Shown here one piece after another: positions 1 to 13,950 of a stretch of DNA of 64,000 nucleotides. Every line of letters starts with the position of its first letter. Position 1 is the first letter of the stretch. The translations under genes and the position numbers were made by a program. The stretch spans positions 10,865,571 to 10,929,570 of the forward strand of contig NZ_CP034550.1 of the NCBI RefSeq assembly GCF_009498035.1. Reading direction: 5' to 3'. The notes beneath the pieces were generated by a model, which ran no database searches, had not been told where the DNA came from, and was given only the letters and a program-made list of their open reading frames with translations. This DNA is from Saccharothrix syringae. Its GTDB lineage: Bacteria; Actinomycetota; Actinomycetes; Mycobacteriales; Pseudonocardiaceae.

Positions 1-1611
1 CGCCCCGGCGTGGGCAAGGCGCTGGCGCTCGACACCCCGCTGCCCACGCCCACCGGGTGGACGACCATGGGCGAGGTGGCCGTGGGCGACCGGCTGCTCG
101 ACGCGGGCGGCAGGCCGACGACCGTGGTGGCGGCGACCGGGGTGATGCGCGGCAGGCCGTGCTACGAGGTCGAGTTCTCCGACGGCTCGGTGCTGGTGGC
201 CGACGCCGAGCACCAGTGGGCGACCGTGACCTCCCGGGGGGCGGCCGGCGTGCGCACCACGCGCGAGGTCGCCGCCACCCTGCGCCGGGGGACGGCCCCC
301 GACCACGCGGTGACCAACGCCGCGCCGCTCGACCTGCCGGTGGCGGACCTGCCGCTCGGCCCGTACACCCTGGGCTCGTGGCTGGGCGACGGGCACCCCG
401 CCACCACCGAGCCCGAGGTGGTCTGGCACGTCGAGGCCGAGGGCCACGAGCCGCGCGGCGGTGCGGTCCCGGGCGTCCTCCGGGACCTCGGCGTGCTCGA
501 CGACCGGCACATCCCCGCCGACTACCTCCGCGCGTCCGCCGAGCAGCGGCGGGCGCTGCTGGCCGGGCTGCTCGACACCGGCGGCACCGTCACCGACGAC
601 GGCTCCGTGCGGTTCGCGGTCGCCGACGCGCGCCTGGCCGAGGACGTCCGCGAGCTGGTCGTGAGCCTGGGCCACCACTGCTCGACCGCCACCGAGCGGG
701 CCGGGGACGGCTCCCGCACCGCGCACGTGCTCACCTTCGGCACCGAGGACGACGTGTTCCGCCTGGAGCACAAGCGGCTGCTGCACAAGGAGCGGCGCGG
801 CGCCCGGACCGGCTCGCGGTTCATCGTCGACGTGCGGCCGGTCCCGAGCGTGCCGGTGCGCTGCGTGGAGGTCGACAACGCCGACCACCTCTACCTCGCC
901 GGCCGGTCGATGATCCCGACCCACAACTCCACCCTGGGCCTGGACTTCGCCCGCTCCTGCTCGGTCAAGCACGGCCTGACCAGCGCGATCTTCTCGCTGG
1001 AGATGTCGCGCACGGAGATCGTGATGCGCATGCTCTCCGCCGAGGCCCGCATCCGGCTCGGCGACATGCGCAGCGGCCGGATGAGCGACGACGACTGGAC
1101 CCGGCTGGCCCGGCGGATGAGCGAGATCAGCGAGGCGCCGCTGTTCGTCGACGACTCGCCGAACCTGACCATGATGGAGATCCGGGCCAAGGCGCGCCGG
1201 CTCAAGCAGCGCCACGACCTGCGGCTGCTGGTGGTGGACTACCTCCAGCTGATGTCGTCGGGCAAGCGCAGCGAGTCGCGGCAGCAGGAGGTCTCGGAGT
1301 TCTCCCGGAACCTGAAGCTGATCGCGAAGGAGCTGGAGATCCCGGTGATCGCGATCAGCCAGCTGAACCGCGGTCCGGAGCAGCGCACCGACAAGCGGCC
1401 GCAGCTGTCCGACCTGCGCGAGTCCGGCTCGCTGGAGCAGGACGCGGACATGGTGATCCTGATCAACCGCCCGGACGCGTGGGAGCGGGACGACCCGCGG
1501 GCGGGCGAGGCCGACCTGATCCTGGCCAAGCACCGCGCCGGCCCCACGGCGACCATCACCGTGGCCCACCAGCTGCACTACAGCCGCTTCGCCGACCTGG
1601 CCCAGGGCTGA
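1..1611 (+). CDS. dnaB: Replicative DNA helicase DnaB, 3' part, with in-frame intein
   Basis: DnaB is the hexameric 5'-3' helicase that unwinds DNA at the replication fork. The window opens inside the gene, at the Walker A codons RPGVGK. That loop is then split by an intein (19-927), and the extein resumes with STLGLDFARS. The C-terminal RecA-like ATPase core follows, with Walker B (VVDYLQLM), the ISQLNRGPEQR sensor segment and SDLRESGSLEQDADM, and ends in a normal DnaB tail. Every copy of the protein must splice to restore the P-loop, so splicing is required for helicase activity. The N-terminal domain lies upstream of the window. The stop at 1609-1611 is followed by non-coding repeats. Identity is certain; only the gene start is unseen. 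Confidence 0.97.
   Translation, partial: RPGVGKALALDTPLPTPTGWTTMGEVAVGDRLLDAGGRPTTVVAATGVMRGRPCYEVEFSDGSVLVADAEHQWATVTSRGAAGVRTTREVAATLRRGTAPDHAVTNAAPLDLPVADLPLGPYTLGSWLGDGHPATTEPEVVWHVEAEGHEPRGGAVPGVLRDLGVLDDRHIPADYLRASAEQRRALLAGLLDTGGTVTDDGSVRFAVADARLAEDVRELVVSLGHHCSTATERAGDGSRTAHVLTFGTEDDVFRLEHKRLLHKERRGARTGSRFIVDVRPVPSVPVRCVEVDNADHLYLAGRSMIPTHNSTLGLDFARSCSVKHGLTSAIFSLEMSRTEIVMRMLSAEARIRLGDMRSGRMSDDDWTRLARRMSEISEAPLFVDDSPNLTMMEIRAKARRLKQRHDLRLLVVDYLQLMSSGKRSESRQQEVSEFSRNLKLIAKELEIPVIAISQLNRGPEQRTDKRPQLSDLRESGSLEQDADMVILINRPDAWERDDPRAGEADLILAKHRAGPTATITVAHQLHYSRFADLAQG
19..927 (+). other. Class 3 intein in the DnaB P-loop, 303 residues
   Basis: The intein begins with Ala directly after GVGK and ends THN before Ser+1. 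There is no Cys, Ser or Thr at position 1. Instead the sequence carries the class 3 WCT triad: Trp67 in block B (AEHQW), Cys282 in block F (RCVEVDNADHLYLAG) and Thr301 in block G (IPTHN). In this class the block F Cys attacks the N-terminal junction. A small LAGLIDADG-type domain lies between the splicing halves. Its first motif (LGSWLGDG, residues 118-125) keeps the acidic residue. The second (LAGLLDTGG, near 181-189) has Gly188 where the catalytic Asp is expected, and the linker between motifs is short. Splicing is probably active and homing probably lost. The class assignment rests on visible motifs; activity is inference. Confidence 0.9.
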
Positions 1612-3625: not shown

Positions 3626-4408
3626 ATGGGTGCGGTGCGGACCACGGAGTCCCGAGCGGTGTGGGACGAGTTCGTGTCGGGCTTGCCGGTCGGGTTGGCG
3701 CTGCTGGACGAGCACGGCTCGGTGCTCGCGGCGAACCCGCCCGCGCGGCCCCTGCTCGACGATGGCCACGGCGACGGCCACGACGACTCCGGCGCGCCGC
3801 TGCCCAGCCGGGCGGAACTGGCGGCGCAGGCACTGCGGACCGGCGCGCCGCTGGTGGTGCCCGTGGTGCTGCCGCGGGCGCGGGTGTGGGCCGAGTACCA
3901 CCCGGTGAACGGGCGGGTGCTGGTGCTGCTGCGACCGGTGCGGTCGGACGCCCCGCACAGCTCCGGGTTCGTCGACGCGCTGACCGGCCTGCCCAACCGC
4001 GCGCTGCTGCTGGACCGGCTGGACCAGGCGCTGGTGCGGGCCCGGACGCACGGCACCCTGGCGACGCTGGTGCTGGTGGACGTGCGGGGGATGGCGGCGG
4101 TGAACGCGGCGCACGGGTTCGAGCGGGGTGACGGGCTGCTGGCGGTGCTGGCCGGGCGGCTGCGGCGCGGGTTGCGCGCGGACCACACGGTCGCCCGGTA
4201 CGGCGGTGGCTCGTTCGCGGTGGTGGCCGAGCACCCGGGCGGTACCGGTGAGGCGGTGGCGGCGCGGGTGCGCGAGCTGGCCGGGCGGGCGGTGAGCCTG
4301 GGCGGGACGCCCGTGCGGCCGGGGGTGCGGGTGTGCTGGGTGACCGGTGACGGGGACGTGCCGGTGCCCGAGGTGGTCGCGGAGGCGGAGCGGCGCCTGC
4401 GGCGCTGA
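3626..4408 (+). CDS. Degenerate GGDEF-domain protein
   Basis: A 260-residue protein with no membrane segment. Residues 10-105 look like a PAS-type sensory domain (WDEFVSGLPVGLALLDEHGSVLAANPPA). Residues 115-258 form a GGDEF fold (DALTGLPNRALLLDRLDQAL opening, then VDVRGMAAVN). The active-site loop reads RYGGGSF (GGGSF at 193-197) where active enzymes have GG(D/E)EF, so both acidic residues are lost, and no RxxD inhibitory site precedes it. It should not make c-di-GMP; such proteins usually act as sensors or nucleotide-binding partners. GGAGG lies 7 bases before the ATG. The adjacent minus-strand genes encode secreted repeat proteins. The fold is clear and inactivity is a strong inference. Confidence 0.85.
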   Translation: MGAVRTTESRAVWDEFVSGLPVGLALLDEHGSVLAANPPARPLLDDGHGDGHDDSGAPLPSRAELAAQALRTGAPLVVPVVLPRARVWAEYHPVNGRVLVLLRPVRSDAPHSSGFVDALTGLPNRALLLDRLDQALVRARTHGTLATLVLVDVRGMAAVNAAHGFERGDGLLAVLAGRLRRGLRADHTVARYGGGSFAVVAEHPGGTGEAVAARVRELAGRAVSLGGTPVRPGVRVCWVTGDGDVPVPEVVAEAERRLRR

Positions 4409-4553: not shown

Positions 4554-7500
4554 TCAGATCCGGGGCAGCTGCGCGGTCTGCTCCAGGGCGCCGAACATGG
4601 ACACCGCGTCCAGGCCGGCCAGGGCCGGGGTCCGCAGCTGGTCCGGGTTCGACACCTGCTGGTTGGCGACCATGCCCTGCAGCGGCGCGGTGTTCATGCC
4701 GCTCGCCGACGGGGGCGCGGTGCGCGGCTGGGCGACGCCCGGGACCGGCAGCACGAACGGCAGCGCGGCCGGGACGGTCAGCAGGGTTGGCACACCCTGC
4801 TCGGTCACCACGTTGAGCTGCTGGGTGAGGTCGGGCAGCTGACGGGTCGCGTCGAGGTCACCCGTCGGCAGGGTGCCGGAGAACGAGCGCTCGCCCTCGT
4901 CGGCGGCCAGCAGGTCGTAGGTGGTGCGGGCCAGGTACGCCGAGCCGGGCATCCGCTTGGCGGACACCTTCCGGACGTCGTCGCGGACGTGCGGCAGCAC
5001 GTCGGTCGGCATCTCGACCACCGGCTCCGGCATCAGGGGCAGCTGGGAGCTGGACAGGTCGGATCGCGGCGCCTCCGCCTTGCGCAGGTCGGTCTTCGGC
5101 AGGCCGGTCCTGGTCAGGCCGGTCTTGGTCAGGCCGGTCTTCGGCAGACCGGTCTTGGGCAGGCCGGCCCTGTGCAGGTCGGCCTTGGGCAGCTCGGTCG
5201 TGGGCATGTCGGAAGCACCCAGCTTCGGCTTGCGCGCCCGCACGGGCGGCAGCTCGTCGCGCACCTCCGAGCCGGTCCGCCACGCGCTCTTGCCCACGGG
5301 CGCGGCCTTCGGCGCCGACGGCAGGTCCACGCGCCGCGTGATGGGCAGGTCGCGCAGCTCGGCCAGGCCGGGGGGCGCGGCGAGCGGCGACTTGGACTTC
5401 GGGAACCAGCGCAGCAGGTCCAGGTTGGGCAGCTCGTCGATGCGCATCAGGCGGTCGACGCCCATCGGGAGCACGATGCCCCGGTTCGGCTCGGCCTCGT
5501 CGTCCTCGCCGGTCAGCAGCCTGCTGCGGTCCGAGGTGGTGGTGGTCGCGATGCCCGCGACCTCCACCGGGACGCCGAACATGCGGGCGAAGCCCTCGAA
5601 GGGCAGCTCCAGGTCGCGCGCGGTGAACGGGCCGGTGCCGGTGGTCGTGGTGTCGCCGCCGGACGTGCTGTTCGAGTCGCTGGCGGTCTTGGCGTCCGCC
5701 AGGCCCGCCGCGGTGACGGCGTCGCCGTGCAGCGCCGGTGCGACGCCGACCGGCGTGGTGAGCAGGTTGCCCGACCACGAGCTGTCCTCGGCCGAGGTCA
5801 GGTGCCTGCCGCCGGCCAGCAGGCCGGCCTGGTTGTCCGCCTGCGAGTAGCCGTTGCCGCCCGCGGTGATCGCGTCGCCGAACACCTGGAGCGGCAGGGT
5901 GGACTGGGAGCCGAGGCCGTTGCCGGACAGCGAGGCGGAGTCGCCGGAGGTGTACACGTCGCCCCCGGAGAAGGAGCCGAACTCGTTGCGGCTGTCGGAC
6001 TCGACGTTGCTGACCGCGCCGATCGCGCTGCCGAACGCCTGCGGCGAGGACGCCTCGGGCAGCGACAGCACGTTGCCGGACATGGAGCCCTGGTCGCCGG
6101 TCGTGACGGCCGCGCCGCCCGAGCGGGAGGTCAGGCTGCTGGTGGTGTCCGACGAGCCGTTGCCGACGCCGACGATCGAGTCGCCGAAGACCTGAGCGGG
6201 GTTGGAGGTCGGCACGTGCACGATGTTGCCGGACGCCGAACCGTGCTTGCCGTTGGCCTGCGGCGGGTTGCCCAGGTCGATGCGGGTGTCGCTGTCGGTC
6301 TCGGAGTTCGGGTTGGCGACGGCGCCGCCGGCGTTGCCGAACACCTGGCCGCCCAGGGCGGTGGGTGCGGAGACGACGTTGCTGGAGACGGTGCCGTTGT
6401 CGTCGACGCTGTTGGCCACGCGGCCCGAGCTGACCGACTTGTTCTCGGTGGTGCGGCCGGACGTGCTGCCCACGGCGCCGAGGTTGTTGCCGAACGCCTC
6501 GGCGGGCACGCCCACCGGCAGCTGGCCGATGTTGCCCGAGCCGACGCCGTTGTTGCCGGTGGTGCCGTTGTAGCCGCCGGCGTCCACCAGCACGTCGTTG
6601 CCGCACTGGCTGTCGGCGATGCCGCCCGCGGTGGTGCCGTTGCCGCACAGGTCGATCGCGCCCGCCGGGGGCGTGTTGGCCGAGTTGGCCGACAGCACCG
6701 AGCGGTCGCCGTTGGTGAACGTGTCGCCGCCCGCGATGGCGGTGACGGCGTTGTCGTGCTCGGTCGAGGTGTTGCCCACGCCCGAGGTCGAGTTGCCCGA
6801 GCCGGACACCGGCAGCGCCACCGGGGTGTCGGCGTAGTTGCCCGCCAGCACCGAGTCCTGGCCGTCGGTCACGCTGTTGCCGCCCGCGCGGGCGTCGTTG
6901 GCGACCGCGCCCGCGACGTTCGCGTTGCCCACGGCGCCCAGGGCGTTGTCGTCGCCGGAGACCGGACCGGCCAGCGACGGCTGGGCCGTGTTGCCCGCCA
7001 GGGTGCCGTCGACGCCCGAGGTGCGCGACCACATGGGGATGCCGTCCCGGTCGGGGTTGGCGTCGCCCGCGTAGGCGGAGGAGCTGTCGTTGCCGTAGGC
7101 GTCCGCGTTGCCGACGGCGCCGATGCCGTTGCCGCTCACCCCGACGATCGGGGCCAGCGGCACGCCCAGGACGTTGCCGCCGCCGCTGCTGCGGTCGCCG
7201 TCGGTGCGCAGCGAACCGGGCGCGGCGGCGTGGTTGTCCGACTCGGAGCTGGTGTGCGAGTTGCCGCCGGCGGCGACCGCGTTGCCGGTCACCTGGACCG
7301 GGGCGGCGCCCTGGACCGCGGCGATGTTGCCGGACAGCGAACCGTGGGAGCCCGAGGTCTCCAGGTCGCCGCCGGCGGTGGCGCGCTGCCGGGCGGTGGT
7401 GTGGCTCTCGGCGTTGGCCAGTGCGGCCACGGCGTTGCCGGTGACCTGCGGCGAGACCGCGGTGGCGGCGCGGGCCGCGTTGCCGGCCAGCGAGCCGTAG

Positions 7501-7967
7501 GAGCCGTCGGTCCGGACGTCGCCGGTGCTCTCCACCGACTGGCTGCAGTCGGCCTCGGTGTAGGCGTTGCCGCCCGCGCCGACCGCGTTGCCGCAGGCGC
7601 TGACCGGCATCACCACGTCGGCGCCGACGGTGTTGCCGCGGGTCAGGCCCGTGCCGTTGGCGGCGTCCAGGCTGTCCTGGCCGCCGCGGACCAGCGGGTT
7701 GGCCGGGGCGGCGACGCGGCCGGCGGCCGTGTCGGACAGGCCCGGGGTGCCCACCTCGCTGTGGACCTCCGGCAGGTCGTGGCTGCCCACCGGGGTGCCC
7801 AGGTTGTTGTGGTCGACGTCGACCGGGACCCGCACCCTCGCGTCGAGCGGGCTGGGCCGCGCGTCGGGGTTGACGTCCTCCTGGGCTGAAGCGATGCCCG
7901 TGCCGAGCATCAGCAAACCACCCGTGACAAGTGCGGTCTGGAGACCGCGCTTGGCCCAGGTTTGCAT
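4554..7967 (-). CDS. Giant secreted chaplin-like repeat protein
   Basis: A 1137-residue exported protein. Residues 1-28 form a Sec signal peptide (KRGLQTALVTGGLLMLG, then ASAQ). Residues 110 to about 782 are thirteen tandem repeats with a strict period of 51 residues. Each opens SGN, has a hydrophobic P-rich stretch leading to QVxGNAVxAxGN, and ends in a T/D/S/G-rich linker (GGDxxTxGDxGSL). The SGN...PV.V.GN core resembles the chaplin (DUF320) domain of aerial-hypha surface amyloids; two repeats keep cysteines (SACGN, DLCGN). A spacer follows, then pentapeptide-like repeats (AGLPK TGLPK TGLTK) near 922-957 and a Pro-rich C-terminal region with no sorting tail. AAGGAG lies 7 bases before the chosen ATG. 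The preceding minus-strand gene encodes a secreted partner. A surface-coat role is inference. Confidence 0.8.
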   Translation of the reverse strand: MQTWAKRGLQTALVTGGLLMLGTGIASAQEDVNPDARPSPLDARVRVPVDVDHNNLGTPVGSHDLPEVHSEVGTPGLSDTAAGRVAAPANPLVRGGQDSLDAANGTGLTRGNTVGADVVMPVSACGNAVGAGGNAYTEADCSQSVESTGDVRTDGSYGSLAGNAARAATAVSPQVTGNAVAALANAESHTTARQRATAGGDLETSGSHGSLSGNIAAVQGAAPVQVTGNAVAAGGNSHTSSESDNHAAAPGSLRTDGDRSSGGGNVLGVPLAPIVGVSGNGIGAVGNADAYGNDSSSAYAGDANPDRDGIPMWSRTSGVDGTLAGNTAQPSLAGPVSGDDNALGAVGNANVAGAVANDARAGGNSVTDGQDSVLAGNYADTPVALPVSGSGNSTSGVGNTSTEHDNAVTAIAGGDTFTNGDRSVLSANSANTPPAGAIDLCGNGTTAGGIADSQCGNDVLVDAGGYNGTTGNNGVGSGNIGQLPVGVPAEAFGNNLGAVGSTSGRTTENKSVSSGRVANSVDDNGTVSSNVVSAPTALGGQVFGNAGGAVANPNSETDSDTRIDLGNPPQANGKHGSASGNIVHVPTSNPAQVFGDSIVGVGNGSSDTTSSLTSRSGGAAVTTGDQGSMSGNVLSLPEASSPQAFGSAIGAVSNVESDSRNEFGSFSGGDVYTSGDSASLSGNGLGSQSTLPLQVFGDAITAGGNGYSQADNQAGLLAGGRHLTSAEDSSWSGNLLTTPVGVAPALHGDAVTAAGLADAKTASDSNSTSGGDTTTTGTGPFTARDLELPFEGFARMFGVPVEVAGIATTTTSDRSRLLTGEDDEAEPNRGIVLPMGVDRLMRIDELPNLDLLRWFPKSKSPLAAPPGLAELRDLPITRRVDLPSAPKAAPVGKSAWRTGSEVRDELPPVRARKPKLGASDMPTTELPKADLHRAGLPKTGLPKTGLTKTGLTRTGLPKTDLRKAEAPRSDLSSSQLPLMPEPVVEMPTDVLPHVRDDVRKVSAKRMPGSAYLARTTYDLLAADEGERSFSGTLPTGDLDATRQLPDLTQQLNVVTEQGVPTLLTVPAALPFVLPVPGVAQPRTAPPSASGMNTAPLQGMVANQQVSNPDQLRTPALAGLDAVSMFGALEQTAQLPRI
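5095..5205 (-). repeat. 15-bp tandem repeat encoding TGLPK-type pentapeptides
   Basis: Within the giant repeat gene, about nine 15-base units on the minus strand encode five-residue steps (ADLHR, AGLPK, TGLPK, TGLTK, TGLTR, TGLPK, TDLRK). The pattern fits a short pentapeptide-repeat helix or a flexible linker. Confidence 0.75.
5625..7640 (-). repeat. Thirteen tandem 153-bp (51-residue) repeats
   Basis: The repeat region is regular at the protein level, and most units are exactly 51 residues. The fourth is ten residues longer. DNA copies have diverged strongly, so the array is old and under protein-level selection, not a recent slippage product. Confidence 0.8.
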
Positions 7968-8168: not shown

Positions 8169-9020
8169 TCAGTCGGGGGTGATGCCGGGCTGCTTGCCGG
8201 GCATCACGACGGTCCGCACGGTGGCGGGGAACAGAGCCCGGGCCACGGCGGTGTCGGAGGTGTGGGCGGACGCGGTCGCGTACGGACCGCTGCCGCCACC
8301 CTGGGAACCGGACGCGTCGCCACCGCAGGTGCAGTGGGCCGGCGCGCCGAGCGGGGGCGCGAACGGCATCAACGGCAGTCCGGACGGGTCACCGGGCAGG
8401 GTCGACCCCTGGTCGGCGACGGGCGCGGTGGTCGCGCCGGTCGCCAGGTCGAGCCACAGCCTGCTGAGCTTGCCGAACACCCCGTGCACCACCGGGGTGC
8501 CGGCGGTGACCGGCACGGCGGCGGTGGTGGCCGGGGTGGTCTCGGTGGCGTGCTGCGCCGGGGTGCCGCCGACCGCGTCGTCGGTGGTCACCTGCTTCGG
8601 CGCGCGCGGCTGGAACCAGGTGCCCACGTGCTCGACGGTGTCGCGGATCTCCTCCGCGACGCGGCCGAGGTCGGGCCGCTGGGGCTCCTGCACGCGCGGT
8701 GAGCGCAGCGCGGCGTCCAGCTCGCGCACGGCCCCGCCCACGTCGGTGGAGCCGAGGGGCGACGCGCCGATCGGCTCCCGGCCGACCCGGCCCTGCCCGA
8801 TCGGCGCCACGACCTCGCGCAGCGAATCGCGCGAGCCCTCCGCGGCGTGCCCGACGACCACCTCGTGGTCGACCGGGGCCGCCGCGGCCGCCGGGGCCGC
8901 GGTCAGCGCCCAGGCGGCGGCGGTGCCGGCGAGGGTGCCGCCGACGACCAGCAGGGCGCGGGAGAGCAGCCGCCGAACGCGGCCCGCCCCCGTTCCCGCT
9001 CGCTGGTCAACGGCCGACAT
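8169..9020 (-). CDS. Secreted protein of unknown function, partner of the repeat protein
   Basis: A 283-residue exported protein. An RVRRLLSR segment is followed by a hydrophobic core and an Ala-rich cleavage region (residues about 14-48). The mature part has no recognised domain. It is rich in Thr, Ala and Pro, with a charged central segment (SLREVVAPIGQGRVGREPIG) and a short HCTCGG motif near the C-terminus. The ATG at 9020 was preferred over one 18 bases upstream because GGAGG sits 8 bases before it. The gene lies 201 bases upstream of the giant chaplin-like gene on the same strand. That spacing suggests co-expression and possibly a joint role at the cell surface. Function is unknown; the link is inferred only from position and export. 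Confidence 0.75.
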   Translation of the reverse strand: MSAVDQRAGTGAGRVRRLLSRALLVVGGTLAGTAAAWALTAAPAAAAAPVDHEVVVGHAAEGSRDSLREVVAPIGQGRVGREPIGASPLGSTDVGGAVRELDAALRSPRVQEPQRPDLGRVAEEIRDTVEHVGTWFQPRAPKQVTTDDAVGGTPAQHATETTPATTAAVPVTAGTPVVHGVFGKLSRLWLDLATGATTAPVADQGSTLPGDPSGLPLMPFAPPLGAPAHCTCGGDASGSQGGGSGPYATASAHTSDTAVARALFPATVRTVVMPGKQPGITPD

Positions 9021-9180
9021 CGCTGGTTCCTCCACCACAGGCGCTGGGATTTCGTCGGCGACGTGATCAAGCCGACGCCCGAAGACTGCCAGGGATCGAG
9101 CCGGGTTCGCACTCCTTCGCCGCCGGGTTCGCCGGATCGTGTGAAGAACACGGCGTGTGGCCGGGGGTGACCACGGGTAG

Positions 9181-11406
9181 TCAGGTGCGCTTGAGCACGC
9201 GGGCCGCGCCGGCCGCCGCGGTGGAGGCCAGGATCCAGCCCACCGCGATCAGCGCGCTGGAGATCCACTGGGACGCACCGCTGAACCGCCACTTGCCGTC
9301 CTGGCCGAGGTCCACGATCGGGACCAGCAGGTCCACCGCCAGCAGCCACGCGTTCCAGGACGGCGACTCGTCGTCGTTGAGCTTGGGCATCTCGTGGCCG
9401 AGGAACCACAGCGCCCCCAGCAGCCAGAACCCGGTCAGCCAGGCGATCGCCAGCCACGGCCGGTAGCCGTAGCCGACCGTCCAGTGCTGGAGGAAGCCCC
9501 ACACCCGGCCCGCCACGCCCAGCTCGGCGAAGCGCCTGCGCTGCTTCTCCACCTGCACGAGCTGGGCCAGCTCCTCCTCGCCGCCGTCCCGGTACACGGC
9601 CGCCAGCTGCTCGTACGGCCCGGGCGCGAAGTCCGGCTGCACCTCGCGCAGCCAGCGCAGCCGGGTGCGCACGTCGACCTGCGGCGCGGAGGTGATCGAG
9701 CGGAAGGTGAAGTCCTCCACCTCCACCCCGCCGGTGGCCGCCCACAGGCCGGGCCCGTCGAACACCGCCGTGGCCGCGCACCGGGTGAGCAGCACCCGGC
9801 CGACCGGCGCCTGCCCGGCGTCGAGCCGCAGCACGAGCTGCTGCACGGTCAGCCCGTAGGCGTTGAGCGCGATGCCGCTGCCGGGGCCGCCCAGCCGCGC
9901 GCCCGCGAACGTGGCCATCTTGCCGACCTCGGCCAGCCGGACGCGCACGCCGCCCGCGGCGGTGAAGCCGTGGCTGCACAGCAGGTCCTTGCCGACGGTG
10001 GCCACCCGGGCGTCCAGGGACGGCTTGACCGTGCCGTCGGGCCGGCCGCGCGGCGCGAGCAGGGTCGCGCCGGAGCAGTCGAGGGTGGAGCCGATCTCCG
10101 CGTTCTGGAGCCGCAGCGAGCCGTGCGCGCGCAGGTTGCGCAGGAACAGCGTGCCGCCGACGCGCAGCCGGTCGGCGAACAGGACGTCGATGCCGGGGCC
10201 GTGCAGTTGTACGCCGGACAGGGACGCGCTGCCCCGCACGTGCGCGTCCACCAGGCGCACCTGCCCGTGGACGCGCAGGGCGGTGTCGCGGGCGCCGCCG
10301 CCGCGGAAGCCGCCGTTGACCGCGCCGCGCGCTTCGAGGTCGCCGCGGACCTGGATGCCGTCGGCGTGCAGGGCGACCGGGATGCGCTGGACCTCGCCGG
10401 CGGGCTCGGCGGGCTCGGGCCCGGTGGCGTCGGTCAGCTCCTCCACCACCTCGCGGCTGCCGATCTCCGCGCCGGACAGCCGCAGGTAGCCGCCGATGTC
10501 GGCGTTGGGCAGGCGGACCGTGCCGGAGGAGGTGAAGCCGTCGTCGAGCTCCACGTTGCCCTCGACCCGGATGCGGTCGGCGACCAGGGCGGCGGACTCG
10601 TCGGCGGTGCCGCGCGGGATGACCAGCACGGGCCGGTCGGTCACGTTGGCGTGCAGCCGGGCGCCGGAGAACACGACGTTGCCGCCGACCCGGGCGCCGT
10701 CGAGCAGGATGCGGCCCTCGGCGGCGAACCGGCCGCCCTCGGCGTCGCAGAACAGGTTGCCCGCGATGGTCACGCCGGTGGCGTCCAGGGCGTTCTGCCC
10801 GGCGTTGACCAGCCGCGCGCCGCCCAGGTGCACGCTGCCGCCGACGTTGGCGCCGCGCAGCCGGACCTCGCCGGTGGCGCGCAGGGCGATCGCCTGGAGG
10901 GAGCCGGACAGGCGGATGCGGGCGGCGAGCAGGGCGTGGTCGTCCCCGCCGTGCAGCACGGCGCCGGCCAGCCGCAGCGTGCCCTCCACCGTCGCGTCGG
11001 TCAGGTCCACCGCGTCGTCGCTGGTGAAGCCCGCCTCCAGGACCAGGTCGCTGCCCACCCGCAGGTTGCGGCCGAGCAGGCCGGGCACCCGGCAGCCGCG
11101 CATCCGCAGGCCGACCAGGCGGGCCATGCGCAGGTCCGGCTTCTCCTCGAAGGTGCAGTTCTCCAGGTCGACGACGTGGTCGACGCGCAGGCCCTCCAGC
11201 GCGAACCGGCCCACCACGTGCGCGCCGACCAGCCGCAGCGCGGCACCGCGCAGCCCGTCCGGGGGCAGGTCCGCCAGCAGGGACGACAGCAGCCCGCCGG
11301 GCACGGTGCGCCCCCGCCGGGGCGCGGTCGGGTCGAACCGCACCCGCCTGCCCGCGGCGAACGCCTCCCGCACGGTCCGCTCGACGTCCTCGCCCGAATC
11401 CGGCAC
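9181..11406 (-). CDS. Membrane-anchored beta-helix-like protein
   Basis: A 741-residue protein. Residues about 55-520 consist of repeating short strands with phrases such as GxVRLxGAxVGGSVxLxGARL and GTLRLAGAVLHGG. These resemble right-handed beta-helix or polymer-forming (bactofilin-like) stacks. The C-terminal 170 residues start with a charged helix (RDGGEEELAQLVQVEKQRRRF) and contain three or four membrane segments (YGYRPWLAIAWLTGFWLLGALWF; ISSALIAVGWILAS). Streptomyces relatives are often annotated as membrane-associated oxidoreductases, but no cofactor motif is visible. The cytosolic or surface orientation of the helix domain cannot be told from sequence. It follows the secreted-protein genes on the same strand with a 160-base gap. 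A scaffold role is inference. Confidence 0.65.
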   Translation of the reverse strand: MPDSGEDVERTVREAFAAGRRVRFDPTAPRRGRTVPGGLLSSLLADLPPDGLRGAALRLVGAHVVGRFALEGLRVDHVVDLENCTFEEKPDLRMARLVGLRMRGCRVPGLLGRNLRVGSDLVLEAGFTSDDAVDLTDATVEGTLRLAGAVLHGGDDHALLAARIRLSGSLQAIALRATGEVRLRGANVGGSVHLGGARLVNAGQNALDATGVTIAGNLFCDAEGGRFAAEGRILLDGARVGGNVVFSGARLHANVTDRPVLVIPRGTADESAALVADRIRVEGNVELDDGFTSSGTVRLPNADIGGYLRLSGAEIGSREVVEELTDATGPEPAEPAGEVQRIPVALHADGIQVRGDLEARGAVNGGFRGGGARDTALRVHGQVRLVDAHVRGSASLSGVQLHGPGIDVLFADRLRVGGTLFLRNLRAHGSLRLQNAEIGSTLDCSGATLLAPRGRPDGTVKPSLDARVATVGKDLLCSHGFTAAGGVRVRLAEVGKMATFAGARLGGPGSGIALNAYGLTVQQLVLRLDAGQAPVGRVLLTRCAATAVFDGPGLWAATGGVEVEDFTFRSITSAPQVDVRTRLRWLREVQPDFAPGPYEQLAAVYRDGGEEELAQLVQVEKQRRRFAELGVAGRVWGFLQHWTVGYGYRPWLAIAWLTGFWLLGALWFLGHEMPKLNDDESPSWNAWLLAVDLLVPIVDLGQDGKWRFSGASQWISSALIAVGWILASTAAAGAARVLKRT

Positions 11407-12753: not shown

Positions 12754-13950
12754 CTAGGCCATCTCGACCAGGTTGCGGCCGTAGCCCTTGGCGGCCAGCA
12801 GGGCGGCGTCGGCGGCGACCAGCAGGTCGGGCAGCTCGTACCCGAAGCGCTGGGTGGTGGCCACGCCGATGCTCACGGTCAGGCCGGTGAGCAGGTGCTC
12901 CTGGCCGTGCGTGTCGACCGTCGGCACGGCCAGGGCGGCCACGGCGTGCCGGATGCGCTGGGCGACCGAGCGGGCCACGGCGGGCTCGGCGTCGGGCAGC
13001 AGCACCACGAACTCCTCGCCGCCGAAGCGGCCCACCAGGTCGCCGCTGCGCACGGTGCCGGTCAGCAGCAGGGCCACCGCGCTCAGCGCCGAGTCGCCCG
13101 CCAGGTGCCCGACCTCGTCGTTGACCCGCTTGAAGTGGTCGAGGTCGAGCAGCATCACGGCCATCGGCCGGTCGCGGACGCGGGCCTTGGCCAGCTCCGA
13201 GCGCGCCCGGCCGTCCCAGTGCACCGCGTTGGCCAGGCCGGTCTTGGCGTCGCGCTGCGCCGACCGGCGCCACTGCGGCAGCTGGGCGGCGCGTTCGAGC
13301 AGGGCCAGCGGCGGGCCGGCCAGCAGGGCGTGCACCGCGTCGGTGACGGCGGCGCAGCCCATCAGGCCGCCGATGCTGACCGCGACCACGCCCAGGACCA
13401 CGTCGATCGGCTCGCCGACGACCTCCTCGCCGGGCGCGCCGGGGCTGCGCAGCTTCAGGCCGACCGAGATCAGGCCCGCGCGGACCACCAGCAGCACGGT
13501 CGCGCCCAGGACCAGCGCGCCCAGGTGCAGGTCGGGCTGCTCCCAGCCGATGGCGTACCGGGCGGCGAACACCGCCAGCGCGCTCGCGGACAGGGTGAAC
13601 ACCCAGCGGTGCGATTCGGGGCGCTGCGCCAGCACGCCGTGCAGGGCCGGGCCGAACAGCAGCAGGACCAGCAGGTTGCACGGCAGCGCCAGCACGCCCG
13701 CGGCCAGGTAGCACAGGTGCGCGGCCCACGGGTTGCGCTCGGTCTCGCCCATCCGGTGGCTGTGGATGGAGCTGCCGATGATGACCGCGCCGGCGGTGGC
13801 CGCGATGGCGGCGAACCGGCCGATCTCACCGGGCTGCGGCTGCGGCGACGACGCGATCACGTGCACCACGAGCGCGAGCGCGCAGGCGTCGACGAACAAC
13901 CAGTAGGCCAGGGCGGAGCGCCGCAGCGTCCACAGTGGCCAGTGGCGCAC
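12754..13950 (-). CDS. Membrane-bound diguanylate cyclase (GGDEF)
   Basis: A 398-residue enzyme making c-di-GMP from two GTP. Residues 1 to about 215 hold seven or so membrane segments (for example AYWLFVDACALALVVHVIA and NLLVLLLFGPALHGVLA), probably a sensor module. A linker (LERAAQLPQWRRSAQRDAKTGLAN) leads to the GGDEF domain at about 235-395. The catalytic loop is intact (FGGEEF, near 306-311), metal-binding LLDLDHFKRVND is present, and the RSGD inhibitory site lies exactly five residues before GGEEF, so product feedback is expected. GGGAGGG precedes the GTG start. It is convergent with the transporter gene and divergent from macS, whose shared 153-base promoter region holds an A+T-rich island. 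In actinomycetes c-di-GMP controls development through BldD (family knowledge). Confidence 0.93.
   Translation of the reverse strand: MRHWPLWTLRRSALAYWLFVDACALALVVHVIASSPQPQPGEIGRFAAIAATAGAVIIGSSIHSHRMGETERNPWAAHLCYLAAGVLALPCNLLVLLLFGPALHGVLAQRPESHRWVFTLSASALAVFAARYAIGWEQPDLHLGALVLGATVLLVVRAGLISVGLKLRSPGAPGEEVVGEPIDVVLGVVAVSIGGLMGCAAVTDAVHALLAGPPLALLERAAQLPQWRRSAQRDAKTGLANAVHWDGRARSELAKARVRDRPMAVMLLDLDHFKRVNDEVGHLAGDSALSAVALLLTGTVRSGDLVGRFGGEEFVVLLPDAEPAVARSVAQRIRHAVAALAVPTVDTHGQEHLLTGLTVSIGVATTQRFGYELPDLLVAADAALLAAKGYGRNLVEMA

Follow-up and report, generated by a model that had tools for sequence, protein, structure and literature searches.

A gene near one end of the stretch examined here, positions 4554..7967, encodes a giant exported protein in which, as judged from its sequence, chaplin domains are fused head to tail into a single chain; we call such proteins poly-chaplins, and this one represents the Pseudonocardiaceae form. 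The stretch as a whole, hereafter the window, covers the final 64,000 bases of one Saccharothrix syringae contig, 10,929,570 bases long. Across genera the number and order of the units are nearly fixed, and both the locus and a gene directly upstream, hereafter the partner, are conserved. Chaplins water-proof the aerial threads of Streptomyces, and we propose, at a probability of roughly one half, that the poly-chaplin is a covalently fused chaplin-type sheath subunit that coats hyphae. The features of the two genes are as follows.

4554..7967, minus strand: poly-chaplin gene, ATG start, 1137 amino acids plus stop (open reading frame, PF03777 match, stop-free open homologues in relatives)
7884..7967, minus strand: signal sequence, residues 1-28, cleavage site judged by eye (35 of 39 repeat-chosen loci average 81% pairwise identity)
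5499..7637, minus strand: repeat array, residues 111-823, with 13 units of 51 residues derived from chaplins and a weak fourteenth (self-comparison, profiles, all-beta model)
7545..7595, minus strand: cysteine pair C125/C141 of unit 1, at the chaplin-type position (conservation of 90% or more across an alignment of 58 sequences; columns 24 and 38-40 of the unit)
6603..6647, minus strand: cysteine pair C441/C455 of unit 7 (alignment of relatives, cysteine count by unit column)
4557..5498, minus strand: C-terminal tail of 314 residues, 824-1137, mostly disordered in prediction (predicted local distance difference test, pLDDT, of AlphaFold2, AF2; poor conservation)
5040..5222, minus strand: tail residues 916-976, a block with weak five-residue periodicity (penta_HetL, E = 0.04; self-comparison; two LPKTG words)
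8169..9020, minus strand: partner gene, directly upstream of the poly-chaplin gene, exported-looking protein of 283 amino acids (an alternative upstream GTG at 9038 is possible)
8172..8201, minus strand: peptide conserved at the C-terminus of the partner, ...QPGITPD (pattern Q[PA]Gx[TN]PD followed by a stop)

Tandem units of chaplin origin

The poly-chaplin begins with a Sec-type N-terminal signal sequence (ending ...GTGIASA, with QED after the cleavage site, as read by eye), followed by an N-terminal segment, the repeat array and the tail. A preliminary description of this DNA had proposed thirteen 51-residue chaplin-like repeats in one exported chain; the reading frame, a lag-51 peak and a 13-copy profile bear out both the count and the coordinates, and the signal sequence agrees with export. 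In a self-comparison of residues 96-800 the top lag was 51 (30.6% identity, z = 18.2), followed by 102 (z = 13.8) and 153 (z = 9.3), with the 99th percentile of shuffle maxima at 14.2% identity. A profile built from the protein's own repeats recovered 13 copies, from 111-149 to 724-771, all without internal gaps and in a register of 51 residues throughout, except for one 61-residue step (255 to 316), and a family-wide profile added a weaker fourteenth unit starting at 787. Mean identity is 30% between units and 36% between neighbouring units, which are therefore degenerate and not recent copies.

Profile comparison shows the units to be homologous to Streptomyces-type chaplin domains. The Pfam chaplin model, PF03777, matched seven stretches of the protein at 29.2 bits against a cut-off of 21, and scored four of six homologues above the cut-off and two below. 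A profile of the 13 units was also aligned with one of 14 chaplin domains, whose origin in Streptomyces is suggested by the chaplin sets of their genomes; the two aligned over 31 columns with a score of 35.3 (probability 95%), compared to at most 10.0 for 60 column shuffles and 9.7 for the reversed profile. The chaplin-like nature ascribed to the repeats in the preliminary description is thus upheld. The commonest residues in unit columns 9-29, counted over 1151 unit copies from 81 proteins, read SGNVVQAPVALPVQVFGNAVA, very close to the chaplin core, SGNVVQVPVHVPVNVCGNTVN. Chaplin domains are described as having GN motifs at turns, 12-13 residues apart (PMC13251363, drawn on in part). In the units GN occupies columns 10-11 (G 89%, N 88%), 25-26 (77%, 45%) and 32-33 (87%, 42%), and the 15-residue spacing of the first two motifs is shared with Streptomyces chaplins, while that of the third is not chaplin-like. 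Of the 228 unit cysteines, 215 fall in columns 24, 25, 38 or 40, the first cysteine column being that of Streptomyces chaplins in those units that keep cysteine. Two cysteines were present in 107 unit copies and one in only 12 (copies from related proteins are not independent), the pattern to be expected if a disulfide formed within the unit at the chaplin position. The poly-chaplin keeps the pair in units 1 and 7, and 68 of the 81 proteins keep at least one pair.

The long C-terminal region, reported in the preliminary description to lack a sorting signal, indeed revealed neither a sorting signal nor a membrane stretch at the chain end on inspection of the sequence. It is also predicted to be disordered, with AF2 pLDDT <50 in residues 824-849, 852-995 and 1005-1137, and is poorly conserved (32-33% identity where aligned and 41-59% gaps in 39 sequences). 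Of the pentapeptide-like block noted there, the five-residue periodicity stands, weakly (z 3-4 in self-comparison). Assignment to the pentapeptide-repeat proteins is not supported: the sole match, penta_HetL at residues 916-976, scored 13.3 bits against a cut-off of 260, and no Pfam pentapeptide model matched the poly-chaplin. Two LPKTG words lie within the block, at residues 936 and 941. More generally, 17 of the 81 proteins carry L[PA]xTG words in their tails, 24 words in all where shuffling predicts 6.4; because they are scattered and no membrane tail accompanies them, we rejected them as sorting signals.

Conservation of the array and its upstream partner

All 24 other genomes of the same genus had a match. 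An alignment of five units detected relatives in 112 out of 200 family genomes, representing 27 of 44 genera. From 132 named loci, selected by a scan that used the word MQTWAKRG, 80 were kept, each of about 20 kb and some cut by contig ends. Their genera include Saccharothrix, Umezawaea, Actinosynnema, Lentzea, Solihabitans, Actinokineospora, Kutzneria, Prauserella and Amycolatopsis, which we take to belong to the Pseudonocardiaceae; two oddly labelled entries, Nocardia (L091) and Streptomyces (P0069), rank among Lentzea, perhaps through mislabelling. Of the 80 named loci, four have 13 units, 67 have 14, five have 15 and four have 18, the 18-unit forms being those of Kutzneria (L095, L099, L122 and L131). 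Unit order was compared between 14-unit proteins, where chance is one in fourteen. The best match to each unit of the poly-chaplin was the unit of the same number in 139 of 140 comparisons for Saccharothrix (10 of 12 loci), 180 of 224 for L073-L091 (16 of 19 loci) and 244 of 560 for L092-L139 (40 of 48 loci), with L071 belonging to no set. With its length and order nearly fixed, the array therefore looks like a folded object and not a freely expanding repeat.

Units were 35-51% identical and almost gap-free across 39 diverse sequences. The signal sequence is conserved far above the mature protein; its average of 81% excludes four of the 39 repeat-chosen loci whose start did not fit the pattern, all of which read MQTW, three of them followed by AR. 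A higher value, 95% in 39 named-locus sequences, is inflated because the selection scan used MQTWAKRG. Relatives of the poly-chaplin numbered 463, many of them already annotated by NCBI as ‘chaplin family protein’. Among the best 120 listed, 106 had 14 units, the median cysteine count was four, none had a hydrophobic-plus-basic tail and five had L[APS]xTG within the last 70 residues. Some genomes hold two or three separate poly-chaplin genes (G030:C19 and C2; G032:C1, C5 and C13; G194:C1).

The partner, which the preliminary description did not mention, lies directly upstream on the same strand at a distance of 145-249 nucleotides (median 195) in the 80 named loci, and is adjacent in 25 of 25 genomes of the genus. 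Its middle part evolves rapidly (26% identity over aligned positions, with 11% proline), its signal region is 60% identical (75 sequences) and its last ten residues are 79% identical (79 sequences). The C-terminal pattern Q[PA]Gx[TN]PD-stop was found upstream in 79 of the 80 named loci, the remaining one having 52 nucleotides of upstream sequence. A tblastn search at 1e-8 had detected the partner in 30 of the 80 loci and a stricter C-terminal motif in 56. Since the final motif was loosened after inspecting the misses, its rarity elsewhere serves as the control: six-frame translation of all named loci contained it 80 times, only once outside this position. A slightly wider pattern was present upstream in 33 of 39 further loci chosen by their repeats, and two of the six loci without it (L155 and L169) sit in genomes with another copy of the array. 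A BldN-type promoter between partner and poly-chaplin, searched for by its consensus, was rejected, the best candidates having three mismatches in 5 of 79 cases versus 6 of 79 shuffled.

In the 80 named loci, tblastn at 1e-8 also placed an AI-2E transporter gene in 79 and dnaB in 67; a gene of pentapeptide type was present in 39, and each of two GGDEF genes had homologues in fewer than half, 35 and 33. In the window, dnaB (replicative helicase; 10-1611, plus strand) is cut by the window start and carries an intein-like insert, as judged from a DnaB_C domain and a LAGLIDADG_3 homing-endonuclease match at residues 178-246. On either side of the poly-chaplin locus lies one of the GGDEF genes, of diguanylate cyclase type (3626-4408, plus strand; 12754-13950, minus strand), and the pentapeptide-type gene, just upstream of the partner (9181-11406, minus strand), encodes a 741-amino-acid protein with a Pentapeptide_3 match of 35.1 bits.

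Comparison with known chaplins

In the parts of the literature drawn on here, chaplins are described as carrying a single domain or two, with a sortase signal on the long forms (PMC5618241; PMC13251363; PMC13293333), and all S. coelicolor chaplins except ChpE as having two cysteines per domain (PMC5618241). The poly-chaplin shares with the short and long chaplins of Streptomyces the homologous domain and export, but it departs from both the one-domain and the two-domain, sortase-tailed plan, with 13-14 units in one chain and no sortase tail. Its cysteine pair is confined to two units (family-wide, to 107 of 1151 copies), and the high hydrophobicity of chaplins is absent from the array as a whole. 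Only the core columns (12-31) are comparable, with a grand average of hydropathy (GRAVY) of +0.69 versus +0.63 for chaplin domains.

A second type of poly-chaplin is common outside the family, with 462 homologues of a 680-amino-acid example, under names including Nonomuraea, Actinomadura, Microbispora, Thermopolyspora and their relatives. Among the best 120 listed, 98 had 8 units, in steps of mostly 52-57 residues, 114 had a membrane-type tail, and the median cysteine count was 14; many are likewise ‘chaplin family protein’ at NCBI. Both types string tandem chaplin units along one exported chain behind a similar signal sequence (MRTWAK... in the second type, by eye), whereas the Pseudonocardiaceae form has 14 units, a median of four cysteines and no such tail among the best 120 of its 463 relatives. 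The chaplin domain and the family label are thus known and the arrangement is not an orphan. The preliminary description named no system with this arrangement; the arrangement is not unique, having relatives in more than half of the family genomes searched and shorter poly-chaplins elsewhere. No description of poly-chaplins or of the partner was recognised in the literature searched, mostly outside subscription journals.

The family seems to lack ordinary chaplins. A PF03777 search (E <= 0.001) of 36 family genomes found no Streptomyces-type chaplin, with the limit that divergent ones could escape; 24 of the genomes gave matches, all in frames of at least 938 amino acids except for one 62-amino-acid frame in G007, in which no signal sequence was seen on reading. 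At the same threshold the poly-chaplin gene was the only chaplin found in the window's own genome. The same search of nine Streptomyces-like genomes gave 6-15 matches each among the matches listed, in frames of 80-540 amino acids, and typical short chaplins would therefore have been seen. A review of 100 actinobacterial genomes, in the part drawn on here, reports chaplin-like proteins in a few non-streptomycete genera, none of them in the Pseudonocardiaceae (PMC4255298).

Predicted fold and possible roles

AF2 models the full-length array as all-beta with pLDDT mostly >90, and a five-unit model reached 92.2, in keeping with the regular beta-rich stacking anticipated in the preliminary description. 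That description had also named two outcomes contrary to its proposal, a lack of relation to chaplins together with a match to an unrelated repeat family, and predicted disorder without regular strand stacking; neither occurred. Charge is nearly excluded from unit columns 34, 36, 38, 44 and 46 (0-1%) and reaches 26-41% in odd columns 35-45 (1151 copies). A folded array is favoured because alternate strand positions are charge-free, cysteines are paired, and unit number and order are fixed; on the models, the units likely stack as coils of one beta-solenoid. The best Z score of the five-unit model, 8.1, was with the beta-helix of SufB-SufC-SufD (145 of 256 residues, 2.7 Å). This helix differs in having about 30 residues per coil in the matched stretch (152 residues versus five units) and in serving intracellular Fe-S assembly, and its likeness to the poly-chaplin is one of shared arrangement only. 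The functional amyloids curli CsgA and FapC gave weak structural matches (root-mean-square deviation of 8.0 and 8.6 Å for CsgA) and no sequence match. Such middling Z scores may reflect a common arrangement only. No matches to the poly-chaplin were found by sequence in the PDB at E <= 1 or in PHROGs, nor to the five-unit model among viral structures with Foldseek.

The signal sequence and the family point to a surface location, and we infer a coat function for the poly-chaplin and a role in it for the partner. Columns 12-31, the chaplin core with its many V, P and A residues, would make up a hydrophobic ladder, while the second stretch (columns 33-46) would turn acidic and Thr residues outward and small residues inward. 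Outside the hyphae, such a two-faced array could adsorb at the wall/air or wall/water boundary and associate into a sheath, replacing the chaplin membrane in organisms seemingly without ordinary chaplins. The amyloid-like stacking that occurs between molecules in short chaplins would here take place within a single chain. The disordered tail may tether or space the array. The partner may use its conserved C-terminal peptide to help in exporting, capping or docking the array.

Several observations weigh against this proposal, chief among them the low overall hydrophobicity and the persistence of the locus in lineages where no array can be recognised. The whole array has a GRAVY of -0.21 versus +0.63 for chaplin domains, and the arrays of six other giant poly-chaplins range from -0.08 to +0.17. 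One genome of the same genus (G009; locus L145, G009:C1:9284000-9296000) keeps only both ends of the protein, in a 1343-residue frame, and three genomes of other genera (G025, G034 and G029; loci L140, L141 and L142) retain the partner and a similar signal sequence, with a protein of 418-448 amino acids in place of the array gene that matched neither the chaplin model nor the five-unit alignment. The middle of L145 is Pro/Gly-rich, with many LPGTGS-type words replacing most chaplin units. In the poly-chaplin the cysteine pair survives in just two units, and unit cysteines are missing altogether from 10 of 81 proteins. With regard to the fold, columns 40 and 42 break the alternating charge pattern (14% and 12%), a test for alternating hydropathy gave only p = 0.06, insertions are located within the long modelled strand, and Foldseek found no PDB match at E <= 0.001 for the full-length or five-unit model. 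The PF03777 search also missed the poly-chaplin itself in 6 of 25 genomes of the genus, so that divergent short chaplins could have been missed too.

The alternative that survives best, possible though in our view unlikely, is a folded protein at the surface or in the matrix of the hyphal wall, gluing cells together or binding partners or polysaccharide, its chaplin-derived solenoid acting as a spacer or adhesin with no part in water-proofing or aerial growth. The low overall hydrophobicity, the acidic outer face, the fixed length and the dedicated partner would all suit such a protein, as would the structural matches, uniformly weak and to many kinds of protein, adhesins and polysaccharide-active beta-helices among them. 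Against it, the unit core keeps the chaplin sequence pattern, and the genome yielded no other chaplin in the family search. It is improbable that the beta-solenoid is an AF2 artefact and the array an elastic or gel-forming exported chain, rich in Gly, Ala and Ser, low in complexity and for the most part disordered. AF2 is reported to be biased towards beta-solenoids, over-predicting them for perfect repeats (PMC11795689, drawn on in part), the array is 43% A+G+S, and two of five full-length models had a mean pLDDT <65; but units only 30% identical are not the perfect repeats of that study, and charge-excluding alternate columns, paired cysteines, nearly gap-free conservation and a nearly fixed unit number and order would not be expected of such a chain. 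Least probable is that the conserved signal sequence and partner form the functional core of the locus and the array is dispensable bulk: the signal sequence is indeed much better conserved than the mature protein and the array is unrecognisable in G009, G025, G034 and G029, but where present its units are conserved as dispensable bulk would not be.

A stronger version of the sheath proposal, which is more doubtful still than the surface-protein alternative, is a two-protein system in which a 14-coil chaplin ‘pre-polymer’, a one-chain amyloid-like solenoid, and an exported partner that recognises or caps it by Q[PA]Gx[TN]PD together replace the Streptomyces chaplin set as the hyphal sheath. 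If the poly-chaplin is the coat, one deletable gene would take the place of the eight chaplins of S. coelicolor, offering a clean test of how the chaplin fold acts at an interface. A structure might also be easier to obtain from a fixed-length fused subunit than from chaplin fibrils. The C-terminal peptide of the partner is a simple experimental handle, and the hyphae that the two-protein system would sheathe, if that proposal is correct, are those of a family with many antibiotic producers.

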